A stretch of DNA of 64,000 nucleotides. It comes from Acidobacteriota bacterium (GTDB taxonomy: Bacteria > Acidobacteriota > Aminicenantia > Aminicenantales > Saccharicenantaceae). The position numbers were made by a program, and so were the translations under genes. The stretch's first letter is position 1, and every line of letters begins with the position of its first letter. The notes beneath the pieces were generated by a model, which was given only the letters and a program-made list of their open reading frames with translations, was not told where the DNA came from and did no database searches. Positions 2,315-61,167 of this stretch are shown here, piece after piece. The stretch is from assembly GCA_039683095.1 (NCBI GenBank), contig JBDKSB010000008.1:1-64000 (forward strand), in the 5' to 3' direction.

Positions 2315-4632
2315 CGTTCCGCGATCCGGACGACCCAGACTTCGCGCGGCTGGAGGGACTTCTCGACGACGGCCCGGTCGCCGTCCCGGGTCAGGGCGAC
2401 GGCCCGGCCCGACTCGAGGTCGGCCGCCGCGGCCCCGGCGGCGTCCGTCCGGACGCCGAACCTGGCCGTGACCGCCTTGTCCTCGCGGTTGAACCCGAAG
2501 AGAATGGCGTAGCCGTTCCCGCGGAGGAGCCGGCCCTCGACCAGGGCGTCCGGCGGGGAGACCGAGACGCGCACCGGGGCGGAGATCTTCAGCCAGTCGG
2601 CCAGCCCGGCGAAGAGCTTGCCGTTGTTGGGGTTCTTGAAATGGTGATAGGCCGAGGCGAGGAAGGAGCCGGCGATGATGGCCCTCCCCTTGCCGAACGG
2701 CGCGGCCACGATGGCCGGCCGCCCGTCGGGGAACGCGGCCACGACCCGGCTCGCCTGCCCGAAGACGTCCAGGCTCTCCTCGAAGAACAGGCTGTCGAGC
2801 TTGTCGCCGGGCCGGAGCAGCGGGAAAGCCTCGTCGGCCGACTTGATCTCGACGACCCCCGTCTTGGCCAGGGGCGTCAGCTCGAGTTCGCGGCAGCCGA
2901 AGACCTGGTCCAGGCCGCCGCCGGGGACGACCGGGCTGGAGGCGCCTTTCTCGTCCACCCAGCCGCAGCGGGCCTCGGTCAGGAGCGCGCCGCCGCCGCG
3001 GACGTATTCGACCAGGGCCTTGACGTGCGGCTGCGACATCATGACCGGGTAGGGCGCGATGATCAGCTTGTAGCCGGCGGCGCGGGGCGTCCCGAGGTCG
3101 CGGACGTGGAGGAAGTCGACCGGGATGTTGCGCTCGAAGAAGGCCCGGTGGACGCCCTGCAGGGATTCGCTCAGGTTGTTGACCCCGACCGTCTGGCCCT
3201 CGCCCGTGAAGGACTGCTGGCCGCCGACCATGTGCGACAGCGGATTGTACAGGACGGCGATCTCGGCCTTGACCGGCAGGGCCCCGAGGAAGAGGTCCTT
3301 GTTGGCCGTGACGGTCCGGGCGATCCGGCCGCCGGCCTCGGCCCGCTCGGTGACCTTGCCGTCGAGCTCGACCAGGCCGTAGCCGCCGGCCTCGTAGCCC
3401 GTGCTCATGGGATAGTAGGCGTAGATGTTGACGGCCCGGGCGCCGTAGGCGATAGCGCTCCACATCCAGTCGCGCGTGTCCGCGGCCACCACGGGGTAGC
3501 TCATCTTCAGGCCGAAGACCCCGTAGCCGCCCTGGAGCTCGCCAATGTAGAAGCCGCCGTTGCCGATGCCCATGGACCGGACGAAATCGAGGCCCGCGGC
3601 GCGGTAGAAGGGCGACCAGGGCTTTATGGTCCAGGCGTGCTTGGGGTAGATCGAGGCGCCGTAGAAATCGGCGCTGTCGGACATCTTGCGGTCGTCCGGC
3701 GTGCCCGACCAGTCGGGCCGGGTGAAGATGCCAGGGGCGGCCGAGTGGCTGGTGACGACCGTGTCGGGCAGGACCGACTTGACGGCCGCGGCCTTGAGGG
3801 CCAGGTCCTCGGCCAGCTTGTCGGAGATGAACTCCTTCCAGTCGATGTAGTCGGTGAATGTCAATATGGTGCCGTAGCGGGGCGGCTGGACCTCGTCGAA
3901 CGACTTCATCGTCCGGTACCAGGCCTTGTTCAGGGCCTCGATCGCGCCGTACTTTTTCTTCAGCCAGTCCCGGAAGCGGGCCTGGGTCGAAGGGCAGTAG
4001 CAGAACTGGACCGAGGCCAGGTCGCCGACATAATAGACCTCGGCCCAGTTGATGATATGGGGCTCGCTCCAGAGGTCCCAGCCGTAGAAGGCCGGCTTGC
4101 CCTTGACGGCCCGGGCCGCGGCCTTGAAGAACTCGAGGACCTTCGCCTGGACGCCGGCGTGGTCGAAGCAGAAGCCCGGCGCGGCCTGCGACTCGACGGC
4201 CACGCCGTTCGAGGAGACGAACTTGCTGTCCGGGTGCTTCTCCCCGACCCAGTCGGGCGCCGAGTCGATGTAGACCTGGACGATGACCCGGAGACCGGCC
4301 TCGCCGGCCAGGTCGGTCAGGAGCTCGAGGGCCGAGAAATCGTACCGCCCCTCGGCCTTCTCGCAGGCCGTCCACTCGATCCAGGTCCGGACGGTGTTGA
4401 AGCCCAGCCGCTTGATCTGGTCGATGTCCTTCTTCCAGGCTTCGCGCGACCGGGGCGTCACGGCCTCGAGCATGGGGGCCCGGGGCTTGCCGCCCGCGTA
4501 CCAGACGGAGACGGGGAAAAAGCCCCTGGTCTTGTCCGGTCCGGCCGGTCCGGCCGGGGCGGCGGCGGCCGGGAGGCCGGCCGCGGACAGGACGAGGGCG
4601 AGCACCATCGCGGCGGATCGTGCGTTTCTCAT
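2311..4632 (-). CDS. secreted GH42-like beta-galactosidase-type glycoside hydrolase
   Basis: A 773-residue exported hydrolase with an N-terminal signal peptide (hydrophobic run ending AAAAP). It has a TIM-barrel catalytic region (about 35-440), a GH42-type trimerisation/glutamine-amidotransferase-like domain (about 470-680, with SLQGVHRAFFERNIPVDFLH), and a small beta-sandwich tail. Clan-A catalytic glutamates are apparent: acid/base Glu190 in WDLWSEPH and candidate nucleophile Glu365 in YIGELQGG. ATG 4632 is preferred to the GTG at 4641 because GAAAGG lies eight bases before it. It is 25 bp downstream of the GH18 gene and overlaps the ROK kinase. The substrate is probably a beta-linked oligosaccharide; specificity for galactose, glucosamine or another sugar is open. 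Confidence 0.9.
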   Translation of the reverse strand: MRNARSAAMVLALVLSAAGLPAAAAPAGPAGPDKTRGFFPVSVWYAGGKPRAPMLEAVTPRSREAWKKDIDQIKRLGFNTVRTWIEWTACEKAEGRYDFSALELLTDLAGEAGLRVIVQVYIDSAPDWVGEKHPDSKFVSSNGVAVESQAAPGFCFDHAGVQAKVLEFFKAAARAVKGKPAFYGWDLWSEPHIINWAEVYYVGDLASVQFCYCPSTQARFRDWLKKKYGAIEALNKAWYRTMKSFDEVQPPRYGTILTFTDYIDWKEFISDKLAEDLALKAAAVKSVLPDTVVTSHSAAPGIFTRPDWSGTPDDRKMSDSADFYGASIYPKHAWTIKPWSPFYRAAGLDFVRSMGIGNGGFYIGELQGGYGVFGLKMSYPVVAADTRDWMWSAIAYGARAVNIYAYYPMSTGYEAGGYGLVELDGKVTERAEAGGRIARTVTANKDLFLGALPVKAEIAVLYNPLSHMVGGQQSFTGEGQTVGVNNLSESLQGVHRAFFERNIPVDFLHVRDLGTPRAAGYKLIIAPYPVMMSQPHVKALVEYVRGGGALLTEARCGWVDEKGASSPVVPGGGLDQVFGCRELELTPLAKTGVVEIKSADEAFPLLRPGDKLDSLFFEESLDVFGQASRVVAAFPDGRPAIVAAPFGKGRAIIAGSFLASAYHHFKNPNNGKLFAGLADWLKISAPVRVSVSPPDALVEGRLLRGNGYAILFGFNREDKAVTARFGVRTDAAGAAAADLESGRAVALTRDGDRAVVEKSLQPREVWVVRIAER

Positions 4633-52313: not shown

Positions 52314-52698
52314 GTCCGGTCTCCTTTCGTTCGGCGCGGCCACGGTCTCATCCAGGATGGAAGGACCTTCTTTTCCTGAAGGCCCGCCCTCCCCTCTTGG
52401 GCCTGACCTCGACGCGGACCGCGCCGTCACTGCAGATCCCGGCCGGCGTCGGGCGGACGCGACGGACCGCCTTTTTCGGACGCTCCGGACCGGCGGGACT
52501 CGTTTTCATGAAAACCCATAATCCAAGATATGTGCCAAGCGCGGGTGGGCGGGCCCGGACGGGGGCGCGGCGTCCGCCCCATGGGACCGGGAGGCCGGAC
52601 CGGGGCCTCATACCGCCGGGCGGGAATGTGTCCTGGCCGGTGAGAAACGTAAAGGCCGGATGTTCCCCGAAGCCCCGGCGCCGGGGCGGGCGGAGGCA
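52314..52698. other. 385-bp intergenic region with a 14-bp AT-rich perfect palindrome
   Basis: No convincing gene. It contains GTTTTCATGAAAAC (52502-52515), a perfect 14-bp palindrome and one of few A/T runs in the area. CATAAT lies just after it on the plus strand. Possible operator or factor-binding site; it is also the only visible candidate control region for the 160-residue secreted protein. Confidence 0.4.
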
Positions 52699-55367: not shown

Positions 55368-56774
55368 ATGGCCAAGATCCTGATCATCGACGACGATCCG
55401 CTTGTCTCCGACTCCCTTTGCCAGGTCGTGGACAAGATGGGGCACGGTTCGTCCGTCGCCAGGAGCGTGGCCGCGGCCCTGGAGGCCGTCCGGGACGGGG
55501 CCTTCGACATCATCTTCTGCGACGTCCGCATGCCCGACGGCTCCGGCCTGGACATCCTGCCCGAGCTGAGGGCCGGCCAGCTCCCGCCCGAGGTCATCAT
55601 CATCACCGGCTACGGGGACCCCGACGGGGCCGAGCTGGCCATCAAGAAGGGGGCCTGGGATTACGTCGAAAAGCCCCTGTCCGTCAAGGACGTCGCCCTG
55701 GCCGTGGAGCGGGCCCTCCAGTATCGGGACAAGAAGCGGGCCGCCCCGGCGCCGGTGGCCCTCAAGACCGAGGGCATCATCGGCAAGAGCCCGAAGCTCC
55801 GCGCCTGCCTGGACGCGCTGGCCCAGGCCGCCTCGAGCGAGGCCAACGCCCTGATCACGGGAGAGACGGGAACGGGCAAGGAGCTGTTCGCCTGGGCCAT
55901 CCACCAGAACAGCGACCGCGCTTCGCGGAACTTCGTGGTCGTGGACTGCGCCGCGCTGCCGGAGACGCTCGTCGAGAGCACGCTCTTCGGCCACGTCCGG
56001 GGCGCCTTCACCGGGGCCGACAAGCCCCGCGACGGGCTGGTCCGGCAAGCGGACGGGGGGACGCTCTTCCTCGACGAGATCGGCGAGCTGCCCCTGTCCA
56101 TCCAGAAATCCTTCCTCCGCGTCCTCCAGGAGCGCCGCTTCCGCCCGGTGGGGGGCGGGCAGGAGGTGACCAGCGATTTCCGGCTGGTCACCGCGACCAA
56201 CCGGAACCTCGAGGACATGGTCCGGGCCGGAGGTTTCCGCGAGGATCTCCTCTTCCGGATCCGGACCCTCGTCCTCGCCCTGCCGCCCCTGCGGGAGATG
56301 AGAGAGGACCTCAAGGAACTCGTCATCCATTACGTCGTCAGGTTCTGCGATCAATACGGCATCCCGATGAAGAGCTTTTCGCCCGATTTCGAGCAGGTCC
56401 TGACGGCCTACGACTGGCCCGGCAACGTCCGCGAGCTCATCCAGTCGCTGGAAAAGGCCATCGTCAGCGCCAAGGACGAGCCGGTCCTCTTCCCCAAGCA
56501 CCTGCCGGAGCATATCCGCGTCCGGCTGGCCCGGGACGCCGTTTTGAAAAAGAAGGTTTCCGAGCCCGTTCGGCCCCCCCTTCCGGGAGAGACGGCCGCG
56601 CCGGCCTCCATGAAGGACTTCCGCGAAGCGGGGCTGGCCCGGCTGGAAAGCGAGTACCTGGCCGGCCTGATGCGTTCGACCTCCCGCAATATCGCCGAGG
56701 CCTGCCGCCTCTCCGGGCTGTCCCGCTCGCGCCTCTACACGCTCCTCAAGAAATACGGCATCCCCCTGTCCTGA
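55368..56774 (+). CDS. NtrC-family sigma-54-dependent response regulator
   Basis: A 468-residue enhancer-binding protein: receiver domain (1-120) with phospho-acceptor Asp52 in FCDVRMPDGSG and Lys in EKPLSVKD. The AAA+ domain has Walker A GETGTGKE (about 165), the sigma-54-contact loop GAFTGA (about 212) and DWPGNVREL. A C-terminal Fis-type helix-turn-helix reads NIAEACRLSGLSRSRLYTLLKKYG. It activates RNA polymerase carrying sigma-54 from a distant site after phosphorylation. The sigma-54-like promoters and shared palindromes downstream suggest its targets are local. The histidine kinase 700 bp downstream is the obvious partner. Confidence 0.95.
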   Translation: MAKILIIDDDPLVSDSLCQVVDKMGHGSSVARSVAAALEAVRDGAFDIIFCDVRMPDGSGLDILPELRAGQLPPEVIIITGYGDPDGAELAIKKGAWDYVEKPLSVKDVALAVERALQYRDKKRAAPAPVALKTEGIIGKSPKLRACLDALAQAASSEANALITGETGTGKELFAWAIHQNSDRASRNFVVVDCAALPETLVESTLFGHVRGAFTGADKPRDGLVRQADGGTLFLDEIGELPLSIQKSFLRVLQERRFRPVGGGQEVTSDFRLVTATNRNLEDMVRAGGFREDLLFRIRTLVLALPPLREMREDLKELVIHYVVRFCDQYGIPMKSFSPDFEQVLTAYDWPGNVRELIQSLEKAIVSAKDEPVLFPKHLPEHIRVRLARDAVLKKKVSEPVRPPLPGETAAPASMKDFREAGLARLESEYLAGLMRSTSRNIAEACRLSGLSRSRLYTLLKKYGIPLS

Positions 56775-56782
56775 AGCCGGCC

Positions 56783-56794
56783 GTCCCGCGGGAC
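56783..56794. promoter_or_regulatory. candidate enhancer palindrome 1 for the NtrC-type regulator
   Basis: GTCCCGCGGGAC, a perfect 12-bp palindrome, about 130 bp upstream of the -24 element. Its TCCCGCGGGA core recurs upstream of the second sigma-54-like promoter. It could also act as a terminator stem, being nine bases after the regulator stop. Confidence 0.45.
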
Positions 56795-56924
56795 CGGCCG
56801 GGACGGCCATCGAGTCCCGCCCGGCAGAATTCCTCCTCCCGACGGCCCGGCCGGCGGCGGCGGCGGCCCCGGGGCCCCAGGGCGGGCGTCCGCGGCCGGA
56901 CGCCGTCAGGGCCCGCGCCGGACT

Positions 56925-56939
56925 TGGCACAATTCTTGG
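56925..56939 (+). promoter_or_regulatory. sigma-54-type -24/-12 promoter 1
   Basis: TGGCAC-N5-TTGG followed by A; consensus is TGGCAC-N5-TTGC. The spacing is exact and a single base differs (GC to GG at -12). It lies about 36 bases before the receiver-like gene. Confidence 0.6.
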
Positions 56940-56975
56940 AATCTCCCTTTGTGAACGATGGCGGAAAGGACCGCT

Positions 56976-57377
56976 ATGGCCTTGAACGTGTTCTTCCTGA
57001 TGGCCAGGCCCTCCGAGGACGGGCGGGCGTTGGTGGGCGCGGCCGGGTCGCTCGTCACGGACGGCCGCATCGAGGTCTTCTCGAACCTTGCCGACTTCGA
57101 GGCCCGGATGCGCGGGCCCAAGGCGCCTCGCTCGCCGGCGATCGTCTGGAACCCGACGCACGACGACCTGCGCGCGCTCGCGGGCCTGAGCGATCTCCTC
57201 GCGGGCCTGAGGCTTCTTCTGGTCCTGCCCGATGACGAGGCGATGACTGTCGCCCTGGCCCACAAGCTGCGGCCGGCCTATGTCTCCTACATGGACGACG
57301 GGATCTCCGAGATCGTGGCCGTGCTCGGGCGCCTGACGGCCCCCGGGGAGGATGCGCCGGGTCCGGGGTCGGCGTGA
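56976..57377 (+). CDS. small receiver-like protein without evident phospho-acceptor
   Basis: A 133-residue soluble protein of alternating hydrophobic strands and helices (LNVFFLMA, IEVFSNLADFEARM, PAIVWNPTHDDL, LRLLLVLPDDEAMTVALAHKL, RPAYVSYMDDGISEIVAVLG), a pattern like a CheY-type receiver. The central strand that should end in the phospho-Asp reads AIVWNPTHDD, and no acidic pair follows the first strand, so it is probably a degenerate (pseudo) receiver. ATG 56976 has AAAGGA five bases upstream; ATG 56958 is an in-frame alternative. It sits between a sigma-54-type promoter and the histidine kinase. Confidence 0.65.
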   Translation: MALNVFFLMARPSEDGRALVGAAGSLVTDGRIEVFSNLADFEARMRGPKAPRSPAIVWNPTHDDLRALAGLSDLLAGLRLLLVLPDDEAMTVALAHKLRPAYVSYMDDGISEIVAVLGRLTAPGEDAPGPGSA

Positions 57378-57416
57378 TGGAACGCCGCCCCCGGGTTCGC
57401 CCCACTGCCCGTCCTG

Positions 57417-57425
57417 TGGTAGAAT
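57417..57425 (+). promoter_or_regulatory. extended -10 upstream of the hybrid histidine kinase
   Basis: TGG-TAGAAT, no good -35; the string TGTGGTAGAAT is identical to that before larB. It would allow kinase expression independent of the sigma-54 promoter. Confidence 0.4.
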
Positions 57426-57460
57426 CGCTCCCGACGATCCAGTCCGCGGAGGGGATGGCC

Positions 57461-60400
57461 ATGGACAGGGCGATGAGAGATTCCGGCATAAGGATCCTGG
57501 GCCGGGTCCCTTGGGGGACCCATTTCTGCCAGTTCTATAAGACCCGCAAGGATCTCCTGGACGTCCTCGTGCCCTATTTCCAGGCGGGCCTGGCCTCGAA
57601 CGAATATTGCATGTGGATCTGCTCGGAGCCGCTGGGGATCGCCGACGCCAGGAAGGCCCTGCGCCGGGCCGTGCCGGGGCTGGACCGGAAGATCCGGGCC
57701 GGCAAGATCGAGATCCTGTCCCACGACGAATGGTATCTCCGGAACGGCCGCTTCAGCTCCCGCCGGGTTCTCAGGGGCTGGGTCGAAAAGCTGAACGCCG
57801 CCCTGGACCGCGGCTTCGCCGGGCTGCGGCTGTCCGGGAGCGCCTTCTGGCTGGAGAAAGGGCAATGGGACGCCTTCACGGCCTACGAAGAGGCGATCAA
57901 CGCCATGATCTCCAAATATCCGATGCTGGCCCTGTGCACGTACTCCCTGGAGCGATGTGATGCCCGGGAGATCATCGACGTCCTGGACAATCACGAGCAG
58001 GCGCTGGTCCGGCGGGGCGGAAAGTGGATCCTGGTGGCCAGCTCGGTCGCCCGGAAGGCCCGTATCGACCTCAAGGCCAGCCAGGACCGTTTCCGGGAGG
58101 TCTTCGACAAATCGCCCATCGGCATCGAGCTCTTCGACGCCGGGGGCCGCCTTCGAGAGGCCAACCGGGCCTGCCTGGAGATGTTCGGCGTCGCCGATCC
58201 GGACGAGGTCCGTGGTTTCCGGCTGTTCGAGGATCCGAACCTGACGCCCGACATCGCCGGGAAGATCCGGAAGGGGTTTCCCGTCCGGCGCGAGTTCCGG
58301 TACGATTTCACCAAGATCAGCCGGGCCGGCCTATTCCGCACCCGGCGGTCCGGCCCGGCCTCGCTCGACGTCCAGATCACGCCGCTCCGGAGCGCAGGGA
58401 GGACCGTCGAGGGCTACCTCGTCCAGATCATGGACATCAGCGAGCGGAAGGCGGCCGAGACGGCCCTGCGCGCGTCCTACGAGATGATGGAGAAGCGCAT
58501 CTCCGAACGGACGTCCGAGCTGGTCCGGACGGTCCGGCAGCTCCGGCGGGAGATCGCGGAGCGCCATGAGCGCGAGCAGGACCTGCGCCAGCAGTCCGCC
58601 CTCCTCAACCTGGCCCGCGACGCGATCATCGTCCGCGACCCCGATTACCGGATCACGTTCTGGAACGACGGCGCCCAGAAGATCTACGGCTGGACCGACA
58701 GGGAAGCGACAGGGCGCGTCGCCCACGTTCTCCTGGGGACCCAATTCCCTGAAAGGCTGAAGGCCGTCCAGGACAGCCTGATGAAGGCCGGGCATTGGGA
58801 GGGCGAGATGGTCCGGACCCGGAAGGACGGGCAGCGGATCGTCGTCGAGAGCCGCTGGGCCGTGCTGCCGGGAAAATCAAAGCGCCGGCCGGAGGCCATC
58901 CTGGAGATCAGCCGCGACGTCACCCAGCGGCGGCACGTCGAGGGAGCGCTGCGGTCGGCCTCGGCCTACACCCGGGGGCTGATCGAGGCCAGCCTGGACC
59001 CGCTCGTGACGATCAACTCCGAAGGGAAGATCACGGACGTGAACCGGGCCACGGAGGCCGCGACCGGCCTGCCCCGGGCGCTGCTGATCGGCACGGATTT
59101 TTCGACCTGCTTCACGGAGCCGGAAAGGGCCCGGGCCGGCTACCGGCAGGTGTTCGACAAGGGCGAGGTCCGCGACTATCCCCTGGCCATCCGCCACGTC
59201 TCGGGCGCCGTGACGAAGGTCCTCTACAACGCGGCGGTCTACCGGGACGCCGACGGCAAGGTCGACGGCGTCTTCGCGGCGGCCCGCGACGTCACGGCGC
59301 TCCGGAACGCCGAGCAGGCCCGGCAGCGGCTGGCGACGGCGGTCGAGCAGCTCGCCGACGGGATCGCCATCACCGACCTGGACGGCCGGGTCCTGTCCAC
59401 CAACCCGGCGTTCGGGGACCATCACGCGCTCCGGCCCGGCGAGATCGTAGGCCGGTCTCTGCAGGAGATCCTGCGGATCGACGGGAGGGGCCTGGAGACC
59501 GCCGGGACCATGGACCGGACGATCCGGGCGGGCAAGGTCTGGAACTGGCATGTCGCCCGGCGGGTGCCCGGCAAGCAGGTCCGCGAATACGAGCTGTCCG
59601 TCTCGCCTATCCGCGACGACGAGGGACGGCTGATCCACTGCATCGCCGTGAGCCGCGACGTCACCCAGGAGATCCAGCTCCAGGAACGGATCCGCCAATG
59701 GCAGAAGATGGAGGCCCTGGGCACCCTGGCCGGGGGGATCGCCCACGATTTCAACAACATCCTGCTGCCTATCCTGATCAACACCGAGCTCACGCTGAGC
59801 GAGGAGCCGCCCGACGCCCCGGCGACCCGGCGCCTTGGCCAGGTCCTGGAGGCGGCCAAGCGCGGCAAGGACATGGTCCGCCAGATCATCGCCTTCTCGC
59901 AGCAGAAGGAGCAGGACCGCCGGCCGGTCGAGATCGCTCCCATCGTCCGGGAGGCCCTCAAGCTGCTCAGGATCTCGATGCCCAAGACGATCGAGATCGC
60001 CGAAAGGATCGAAGCCGGATCCGCCGTGATCGTGGCCGACCCGACGCAGATCCAGCAGGTCCTGATGAACCTGGGCAACAACGCCGCCTATGCCATGCGG
60101 GAGACCGGCGGCGTCCTGGACGTGTCCGTTTCCGAGGTCTCCCTCGACAAGGGCATGGCCGAGCGTTTCCTCGACATCAAGCCGGGCTCGTATGTCCGGC
60201 TGTCCGTGCGCGATACCGGCCAGGGCATCCCGCCCGAGGTCATGGACCGGATCTTCGAGCCCTTCTTCACGACCAAGAAGAAGGGCGAAGGGACGGGCAT
60301 GGGTCTGGCCGTCGTCCACGGCGTCGTCAAGGGCCACGGCGGGGCGATCTCCGTCTCGAGCGAGGTCGGCAAGGGGACGACGTTCACCGTCTACCTGCCC

Positions 60401-60829
60401 CGGGTGGCAGGCGAGGCCGCCAGGACGGAAGAGAGCCCGGAACCGTTCGCGAAGGGGACCGAGAGGATCCTGTTCGTGGACGACGAAGACATCCAGGTCC
60501 GGGCCATGACCAAGCTCCTGGAGCACCTCGGCTACAGGGTCGTCGGCCTGACCGACGCCGTCGAGGCCCTCGAGCTCGTCCGCAAGGACCCCGGCGCGTT
60601 CGACCTGGTCATCATGGACCAGACCATGCCCAGACTGAGCGGGGGCGAGATGGCCGGAGAGATCCTGCGCCTCCGCCCAGGCCTGCCCCTGATCCTCTGC
60701 ACCGGCTACAGCGAGACCCTGGACGAAGAGCAGGCCCTGGCCATGGGCATCCGGGCCTTCGTCATGAAGCCGTTCTCGGTCAAGGAGATCGCCCTCAGCA
60801 TCCGCCGGGCCCTGGCCCCGGCCGCCTGA
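57461..60829 (+). CDS. MEDS-PAS hybrid sensor histidine kinase
   Basis: A 1122-residue cytoplasmic sensor with no transmembrane segment. N-terminal MEDS domain (about 10-195; WGTHFCQFYKTRKDLLDVLVPYFQAGL, CMWICSEP), as in DcmR/MtrR-type sensors of one-carbon and methanogen organisms. Then about four PAS domains (roughly 205-330, 385-510, 520-640, 645-745). HisKA has His762 in GIAHDFNN; HATPase follows with DTGQGIPPEVMDRIFEPFF and GTGMGLAVVHG; a C-terminal receiver has acceptor Asp1053 in VIMDQTMP. The ATG has GGAGGGG six bases upstream. Likely phospho-donor to the NtrC-type regulator; ligand unknown. Confidence 0.93.
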   Translation: MDRAMRDSGIRILGRVPWGTHFCQFYKTRKDLLDVLVPYFQAGLASNEYCMWICSEPLGIADARKALRRAVPGLDRKIRAGKIEILSHDEWYLRNGRFSSRRVLRGWVEKLNAALDRGFAGLRLSGSAFWLEKGQWDAFTAYEEAINAMISKYPMLALCTYSLERCDAREIIDVLDNHEQALVRRGGKWILVASSVARKARIDLKASQDRFREVFDKSPIGIELFDAGGRLREANRACLEMFGVADPDEVRGFRLFEDPNLTPDIAGKIRKGFPVRREFRYDFTKISRAGLFRTRRSGPASLDVQITPLRSAGRTVEGYLVQIMDISERKAAETALRASYEMMEKRISERTSELVRTVRQLRREIAERHEREQDLRQQSALLNLARDAIIVRDPDYRITFWNDGAQKIYGWTDREATGRVAHVLLGTQFPERLKAVQDSLMKAGHWEGEMVRTRKDGQRIVVESRWAVLPGKSKRRPEAILEISRDVTQRRHVEGALRSASAYTRGLIEASLDPLVTINSEGKITDVNRATEAATGLPRALLIGTDFSTCFTEPERARAGYRQVFDKGEVRDYPLAIRHVSGAVTKVLYNAAVYRDADGKVDGVFAAARDVTALRNAEQARQRLATAVEQLADGIAITDLDGRVLSTNPAFGDHHALRPGEIVGRSLQEILRIDGRGLETAGTMDRTIRAGKVWNWHVARRVPGKQVREYELSVSPIRDDEGRLIHCIAVSRDVTQEIQLQERIRQWQKMEALGTLAGGIAHDFNNILLPILINTELTLSEEPPDAPATRRLGQVLEAAKRGKDMVRQIIAFSQQKEQDRRPVEIAPIVREALKLLRISMPKTIEIAERIEAGSAVIVADPTQIQQVLMNLGNNAAYAMRETGGVLDVSVSEVSLDKGMAERFLDIKPGSYVRLSVRDTGQGIPPEVMDRIFEPFFTTKKKGEGTGMGLAVVHGVVKGHGGAISVSSEVGKGTTFTVYLPRVAGEAARTEESPEPFAKGTERILFVDDEDIQVRAMTKLLEHLGYRVVGLTDAVEALELVRKDPGAFDLVIMDQTMPRLSGGEMAGEILRLRPGLPLILCTGYSETLDEEQALAMGIRAFVMKPFSVKEIALSIRRALAPAA

Positions 60830-60879
60830 CCCCGGCGCCTGTCACGATGCCGGTCCGGGCGGCCGCGGGCGCTCGCTCC

Positions 60880-60911
60880 GTCCCGGCCGGCGGGACCCTT
60901 TCCCGCGGGAA
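60880..60911. promoter_or_regulatory. candidate enhancer palindrome pair 2 for the NtrC-type regulator
   Basis: Two neighbouring dyads: GTCCCG-N5-CGGGAC (60880-60896) and the perfect TTCCCGCGGGAA (60900-60911), about 90-120 bp upstream of the second -24 element. The TCCCGCGGGA core matches palindrome 1. Confidence 0.45.
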
Positions 60912-60999
60912 TAGACAGCCGGGCCCCCGGCCGTCCCGATCGGCGGTCACTCCTCCCTCGCGGTCTGGCCGCCGGCCCATCCGCCCTGTCTATGGATCC

Positions 61000-61014
61000 T
61001 GGCACGTTTTTTGT
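61000..61014 (+). promoter_or_regulatory. sigma-54-type -24/-12 promoter 2
   Basis: TGGCAC-N5-TTGT followed by A, with G right after the -24 block as in the consensus and a T-rich spacer. One base deviates (C to T at -12). It is embedded in an ATCCTGG/CCAGGAT inverted repeat (60996-61002, 61017-61023), about 50 bases before the microprotein gene. Confidence 0.6.
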
Positions 61015-61065: not shown

Positions 61066-61167
61066 ATGAGCAAGAACGGGCTTCGCTGGCTCATGATCGT
61101 GTCGCTCGCCCTCGGCTATTTTTTGGGCCGGAGGGCATCCGCGCCAAAGACCGGCCCGGCCCGGTGA
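61066..61167 (+). CDS. 33-residue single-span membrane microprotein
   Basis: Encodes MSKNGLRWLMIVSLALGYFL followed by GRRASAPKTGPAR: a short N-terminus, one hydrophobic helix (about residues 6-20) and a basic tail. The pattern suggests a membrane helix with the basic tail in the cytoplasm. GGAG and GAAGG lie 7-11 bases before the ATG. First gene behind sigma-54-type promoter 2, 13 bp before the Cys-rich gene. Too short for most gene callers; translation is supported by ribosome site, promoter and operon position, but function is unknown. Confidence 0.6.
   Translation: MSKNGLRWLMIVSLALGYFLGRRASAPKTGPAR

Follow-up and report, generated by a model that had tools for sequence, protein, structure and literature searches.

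Tandem 17-bp dyads upstream of sigma-54-type promoters as predicted enhancers of an NtrC-type response regulator in Aminicenantes

The DNA analysed here (the window) comprises positions 1 to 64,000 of contig JBDKSB010000008.1, from the 3.29 Mb genome of an Acidobacteriota bacterium (assembly GCA_039683095.1, hereafter G000). Between 52.3 and 61.2 kb the window carries three sigma-54-type promoters, p0, p1 and p2, with the gene of an NtrC-type response regulator (55368-56774, plus strand) between p0 and p1 and a MEDS-PAS kinase gene (57464-60829, plus strand) between p1 and p2. A preliminary description had noticed palindromes upstream of p1 and p2 and had taken their shared core for the recognition sequence of the regulator. 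We found that the conserved element is instead a pair of dyads. The palindromes very probably belong to upstream activating sequences of the regulator whose unit, as deduced from sequence comparison, would be two 17-bp dyads of consensus KTCCYG-N5-CRGGAY with starts 20 bp apart. This unit usually ends 72-86 bp upstream of TGGCAY-N5-TTG, and in some divergent promoter pairs a single unit lies between both promoters.

The close relatives of G000 are Candidatus Aminicenantes bacterium RBG_16_66_30, Candidatus Aminicenantes Chersky.35_14 and Acidobacteria bacterium RA.bin134. Regulator orthologues of 74-86% identity are present in the Aminicenantes genomes G002, G005 and G012, where gene order and p1/p2 are also retained. 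Phylogenetic footprinting of the orthologous p2 regions of these three genomes and G000 revealed a single conserved block ahead of the -24 element, a 37-bp segment located 72-85 bp before it and made of the two dyads. Invariant columns accounted for 16 of the 24 half-site positions, none of the five positions of the first spacer, none of the three of the linker and 17 of the 156 flanking positions (Fisher 1e-8). The first predicted enhancer site of p2, GTCCCG-GCCGG-CGGGAC (60880..60896, plus strand), had been listed as a third dyad and is kept in G002, G005 and G012 with its spacer fully changed. The second predicted site, TTCCCG-CGGGA-ATAGAC (60900..60916, plus strand), includes the palindrome TTCCCGCGGGAA and has the orthologues TTCCCGCCGGAACGGAC, TTCCCGCCGGAGCGGAT and TTCTCGCCGGCCCGGAT at the same 20-bp offset. 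The complete pairs read GTCCCGGCCGGCGGGAC CCT TTCCCGCGGGAATAGAC in G000, GTCCCGTTCTCCGGGAC GCT TTCCCGCCGGAACGGAC in G002, GTCCCGCGCGGCAAGAC GCC TTCCCGCCGGAGCGGAT in G005 and TTCCCGCCTCACAGGAC GTA TTCTCGCCGGCCCGGAT in G012. Thus, the palindrome at 60900-60911 corresponds to the left two-thirds of the second dyad and looks perfect through one spacer base; the relatives carry TTCCCGCCGGAA, TTCCCGCCGGAG and TTCTCGCCGGCC at its position and do not retain its right half. The palindromes themselves had been correctly read, that is, GTCCCGCGGGAC (56783-56794), TTCCCGCGGGAA (60900-60911) and the dyad at 60880-60896 are all exact and the gaps to the -24 elements are ∼130 bp for p1 and ∼88 bp for p2. At p2 the conserved block also bears out the proposal of a sigma-54 promoter preceded, at the usual distance, by an enhancer element of NtrC type.

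The promoters were identified by their -24/-12 elements, TGGCACATATCTTGG for p0 (52523..52537, minus strand), TGGCACAATTCTTGG for p1 (56925..56939, plus strand) and TGGCACGTTTTTTGT for p2 (61000..61014, plus strand; 13 of 14 columns invariant in the four genomes). The first of them, at 52537 on the minus strand, is a third promoter that had gone unnamed, and it has an orthologous promoter in G002. Of 19 homologous loci, 16 have a -24/-12 element 3′ of the regulator gene. All three are of the form TGGCAY-N5-TTG(C), conserved across orthologues, and are classed as sigma-54 promoters. Genome-wide, where the G000 statistics come from pattern searches and retrieved stretches, TGGCAYN5TTG gave 41 candidates versus seven for the reversed control.

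We then asked how the tandem arrangement is distributed among these candidates. A symmetric matrix was derived solely from p2 of G002, G005 and G012 (six sites), ignoring spacers and holding out G000, and was scanned upstream of the 41 candidates of G000, with 5104 windows as the null. Tandem scores of at least 14 at 20-bp spacing were reached by 6 of the 41 promoters versus 0.08% of the null windows, none of which reached 16, and 20 bp was the best spacing among the 14-45 tested. The six were p2 (23.5), C12:999914 (22.8), p0 (20.1), the two divergent promoters at C1:375836/376022 (18.6 for the pair) and C12:105618 (16.8). At p0 the predicted sites are TTCTCACCGGCCAGGAC (52630..52646) and, 20 bp from it and 72 bp from the -24 element, TTCCCGCCCGGCGGTAT (52610..52626), both on the minus strand. 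The tandem pair of C12:999914 is retained in the G002 orthologue (L165), and in G005 and G012 a single pair is common to divergent sigma-54 promoters (L160, L184). In addition, a search for a promoter accompanied by one dyad returned 17 matches in the four genus genomes with a close orthologue, about four in nine others and one with the reversed control. An order-wide tandem pattern with three mismatches proved too permissive in G+C-rich genomes.

Some other arrangements were seen along the way. At G104:C119:14484-14538 and G094:C87:17235-17289 there are apparently three 17-mers in a row at 20-bp steps instead of two. Also, the G000 promoters C6:12355 (L067, upstream of 4356) and C9:116578 (L074, upstream of 6579) are preceded by 16-bp dyads, GTCCCTTTTTCAGGAC and GTCCTTAAAGGAGGAC, with a spacer one base shorter, which are perhaps sites of a related activator.

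The regulator encoded at 55368-56774 has the expected architecture. Pfam assigned Response_reg (1.7e-22), Sigma54_activat (1.7e-64) and AAA_lid_14 domains; a separate HTH_8 match was not returned at 1e-3. Its C-terminal segment IAEACRLSGLSRSRLYTLLKKYG could be aligned in 17 homologues, and RGAFTGA (residues 211-217), the GAFTGA loop that contacts sigma-54, is invariant in all 17. With a receiver, a sigma-54 AAA+ domain and a predicted Fis-like helix-turn-helix (helix SGLSRSRLYTLLKK), the protein qualifies by sequence as NtrC-type, and it is the proposed binder of the dyads. Among the Aminicenantes homologues there is hardly any variation in the recognition helix, SGLSRSRLY. In the more distant group-B Aminicenantes (homologues of 56-59% identity), the promoter located after the regulator gene is preceded by GTGCTCATTTATTGGAA TRA GTGCTGTTTAAGAGAAC, with identical geometry.

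The association extends to another phylum. The Syntrophaceae genome UBA2208 (locus L083; 3.6 Mb, ∼45% G+C) encodes a regulator 58% identical to that of G000, and its gene is followed, at 64 bp and 4.7 kb, by two sigma-54 promoters. The pair TTCCTGTGAAACAGGAT TCC GTCCTGCTCTACGGGAC lies 86 bp before the promoter after the regulator gene and the pair TTCCTGTCATAGAGGAT TTC GTCCTGTACAACAGGAC is found at the second promoter, 4.7 kb further on; these are the only tandem pairs with zero or one mismatch in the 3.6 Mb. Co-occurrence was then evaluated with a degenerate tandem pattern, not including the promoter, in 148 relatives of UBA2208, 22 of which carry the regulator. Results showed tandem pairs in 6 of the 22 regulator-bearing genomes versus 3 of the 126 others (p = 3.5e-4; p = 0.007 after removing two genomes seen previously). 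A perfect TGGCAYN5TTG was present near 9 of 12 tandem sites in the regulator-bearing genomes versus none of 4 in the others. Because of the linkage in Syntrophaceae, this co-occurrence and the near-invariance of the recognition helix, the adjacent regulator is the likely binder of the tandem dyads, as the preliminary description had anticipated. One further Syntrophaceae homologue, UBA10514 (L080), has SRSH in place of SRSR in the recognition helix, and between its regulator stop (∼4224) and a promoter at 4393 stands GTCCGATATTCCGGAC GGT GTCCGGTATCACGGAC, that is, 16-bp dyads 19 bp apart; this joint change of helix and dyad is a possible case of coevolution.

From the computed conservation, geometry, promoter association and regulator linkage we infer binding, phosphorylation and activation along the following lines. 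The MEDS-PAS hybrid kinase would be the likely phosphate donor to the regulator. Phosphorylated dimers would then occupy both sites, on the same face of the DNA (about two helical turns), through the Fis-like helix-turn-helix, and assemble an AAA+ ring that loops to the sigma-54 RNA polymerase and opens the promoter. Activation by looping after phosphorylation is suggested because of two family features, the AAA+ domain with its GAFTGA loop and the receiver domain. The predicted targets in G000 would be p2, p0 and at least three more loci.

Several observations weigh against this proposal. The motifs at p0, p2 and C12:999914 had been spotted by eye before the matrix was run; the two loci not seen beforehand (C1:375836 and C12:105618) alone give p = 7e-4. 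The half-sites differ between subfamilies though the recognition helix barely does. At the second p2 site the spacer is partly conserved (three of five columns), so that the inner palindrome TTCCCGCCGGAA (inner CCGG) may be used there. Finally, none of G000, G002, G005 and G012 has a tandem pair at p1, the promoter adjoining the regulator gene, while such a pair does occupy this position in group-B Aminicenantes (GTGCT half-sites) and in Syntrophaceae.

The palindrome upstream of p1, GTCCCGCGGGAC (56783..56794, plus strand), deserves separate consideration. It has no counterpart in G002, G005 or G012, and in G002, the closest relative (regulator 86% identical), p1 is otherwise alike but without the palindrome. 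A role for this copy is thus not supported and, as judged from the alignment, it is probably not an operative site; it may be a chance occurrence, a 3′-end hairpin or a weak auxiliary site. The only 17-mer that we could discern at p1, GTCCCGCCCGGCAGAAT (56814..56830, plus strand; GTCCCGCCCGGCGGAAC in G002), is weak (single-site p ∼0.05-0.11) and not tandem. The palindrome begins 9 nt past the regulator stop codon and the relatives have hairpins of other sequences there too, which would fit a structure with no part in enhancer function, namely an RNA hairpin or terminator closing the regulator mRNA at its 3′-end. We consider this unlikely, though it deserves to be kept in mind: folding was no better than that of shuffles in the four genomes (z -0.3 to -0.7; -0.40 for 56783-56794), there is no U-tract in G000, and a hairpin would account for p1 only and not for p2.

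The tandem sites could also be real enhancers but belong to another sigma-54 activator, and the adjacent regulator would then have other targets. About 20 homologues of sigma-54 activators in G000, which likewise tell against our assignment, and the missing pair at p1 beside the regulator gene would agree with this possibility. However, the only near-perfect pairs of the Syntrophaceae genome flank the operon of the regulator, and motif and regulator co-occur over the 148 genomes, making another binder improbable.

Still less credit can be given to the original idea that the gapless palindrome is itself the recognition sequence, with one dimer site each at p1 and p2. Its 10-bp core, TCCCGCGGGA, had been expected to be associated genome-wide with sigma-54 promoters, and this held in part. 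The core is not dense: G000 has nine copies, of which at least five or six look coding, while the reversed control occurs 25 times; in the window, two copies compare with 0.67 expected, and two or more appeared in 15 of 100 shuffles. Yet for each of the three copies that look non-coding (56784, 60901 and C2:100302), one of the 41 promoter candidates follows within 200 bp downstream (binomial p ∼1e-6). The association of the intergenic copies with sigma-54 promoters is real; it does not identify the critical letters. The gapless core is not kept at p1 or p2 in G002, G005 and G012, its right half being lost at p2 and the whole element missing at p1 of the closest relative. Moreover, it is absent from p0 and the other tandem promoters, and its 10-bp gapless spacing is unlike the 17-bp dyad of every supported promoter. 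We discarded it as the recognition site for these reasons. The copy at C2:100302 (L065:5303) precedes TGGCACGAATCTTGC by 175 bp; taken as a 17-mer, it becomes TTCCCGCGGGACGGAAT, which is not tandem and has a single mismatch, in its right half.

That all of this is coincidence in G+C-rich intergenic DNA is hardly conceivable: the window count of the 10-mer is unremarkable and a single 17-mer, with ∼300 one-mismatch matches per strand in the genome, is useless alone as a predictor, but tandem pairs at a fixed 20 bp beside sigma-54 promoters score above every null window and are seen again in a different phylum, in a genome of 45% G+C.

Comparison with known systems places the tandem dyads close to the NtrC enhancers. 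NtrC sites are 17-bp dyads, TGCACC(A/T)4TGGTGCA, found upstream of glnA and other nitrogen promoters (PMC4987338). Both systems pair their 17-bp dyads upstream of TGGCAY-N5-TTGC, the six-base half-sites being separated by ∼5 bp, and both have an activator with receiver, AAA+ and Fis-like domains. In contrast, the half-site here is KTCCYG instead of TGCACC, so the sites do not read TGCACC-N5-GGTGCA as in the nitrogen regulon of E. coli and Salmonella; the tandem spacing is a regular 20 bp, the partner is a MEDS-PAS hybrid kinase and the targets in the loci examined are not nitrogen genes. By analogy, the element would act in the manner of NtrC enhancers without being an NtrC site. For Desulfovibrio vulgaris Hildenborough, 36 sigma-54 regulons have been described; in Desulfovibrio, most sigma-54 promoters lie at most 100 nt from the activator site, and activators are frequently encoded beside promoters under their own control (PMC4641369). 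The layout found here is similar, with activator genes beside their own sigma-54 promoters, small regulons and enhancers mostly within 100 nt; the main text of that paper gives no GTCC, TCCTG or CAGGA motif for the D. vulgaris regulons. GlrR (QseF), whose site is TGTC-N10-GACA, NorR and FhlA are likewise response-regulator or sensor-type sigma-54 activators with dyad enhancers (PMC4987338), and hydrogenase, formate dehydrogenase or nitric oxide (NO) reductase genes also figure among the targets predicted here. They differ in their half-sites, and NorR and FhlA are not response regulators.

The predicted regulon of G000 includes a small membrane protein and a cysteine-rich protein (p2), a secreted protein, a YtkA-like protein and a MacB-type ABC transporter (p0), a receiver protein and a molybdopterin oxidoreductase (C12:999914), a DUF6600 protein (C1:375836) and an outer-membrane efflux operon (C12:105618). 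In relatives, predicted targets include a NiFe hydrogenase small subunit (G005), OsmC and HycI (G012), and NO reductase, OsmC and a multihaem cytochrome (Syntrophaceae). These functions are no more than a hint of a redox or stress theme. We propose tentatively, as an idea somewhat short of probable, that an undescribed family of sigma-54 response regulators, with a MEDS-PAS hybrid kinase in Aminicenantes and present also in Desulfobacterota, runs a redox/stress regulon (hydrogenase, a formate dehydrogenase-like enzyme, NO reductase, OsmC, multihaem cytochrome, efflux). It would do so through a tandem enhancer of fixed 17-bp/20-bp layout; the half-site would have drifted from one subfamily to another (TCCCG, TCCTG, TCTTG, TGCTC), with spacing and recognition helix nearly constant.

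In the open literature searched we found neither a report of a KTCCYG-N5-CRGGAY motif nor a paper mentioning both Aminicenantes and sigma-54. The recognition motif and regulon predicted here are new, though their kind is known. For the uncultured Aminicenantes they amount to a concrete, testable regulon: motif, regulator and targets are specified and can be carried over to other genomes. Through the link to another phylum the motif becomes testable in a relative that is easier to handle, and half-sites that drift while the recognition helix stays nearly fixed offer a usable case of coevolution between an activator and its sites.

As for the neighbouring genes, the product of 57464-60829, downstream of p1, is a MEDS-PAS-histidine kinase-receiver protein (Pfam: MEDS 1.6e-46, HATPase_c 7.6e-26, Response_reg 3.3e-21). 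After p2, positions 61066-61164 may encode a 33-codon peptide with a single membrane span (MSKNGLRWLMIVSLALGYFLGRRASAPKTGPAR), of no known family. The first gene after p1 (56976-57377) encodes a 133-aa protein without a Pfam match, possibly a degenerate receiver domain, which has a 122-aa counterpart at the same position in Syntrophaceae (L083:10185-10550; 32% identity over 90 residues, E 7e-19).

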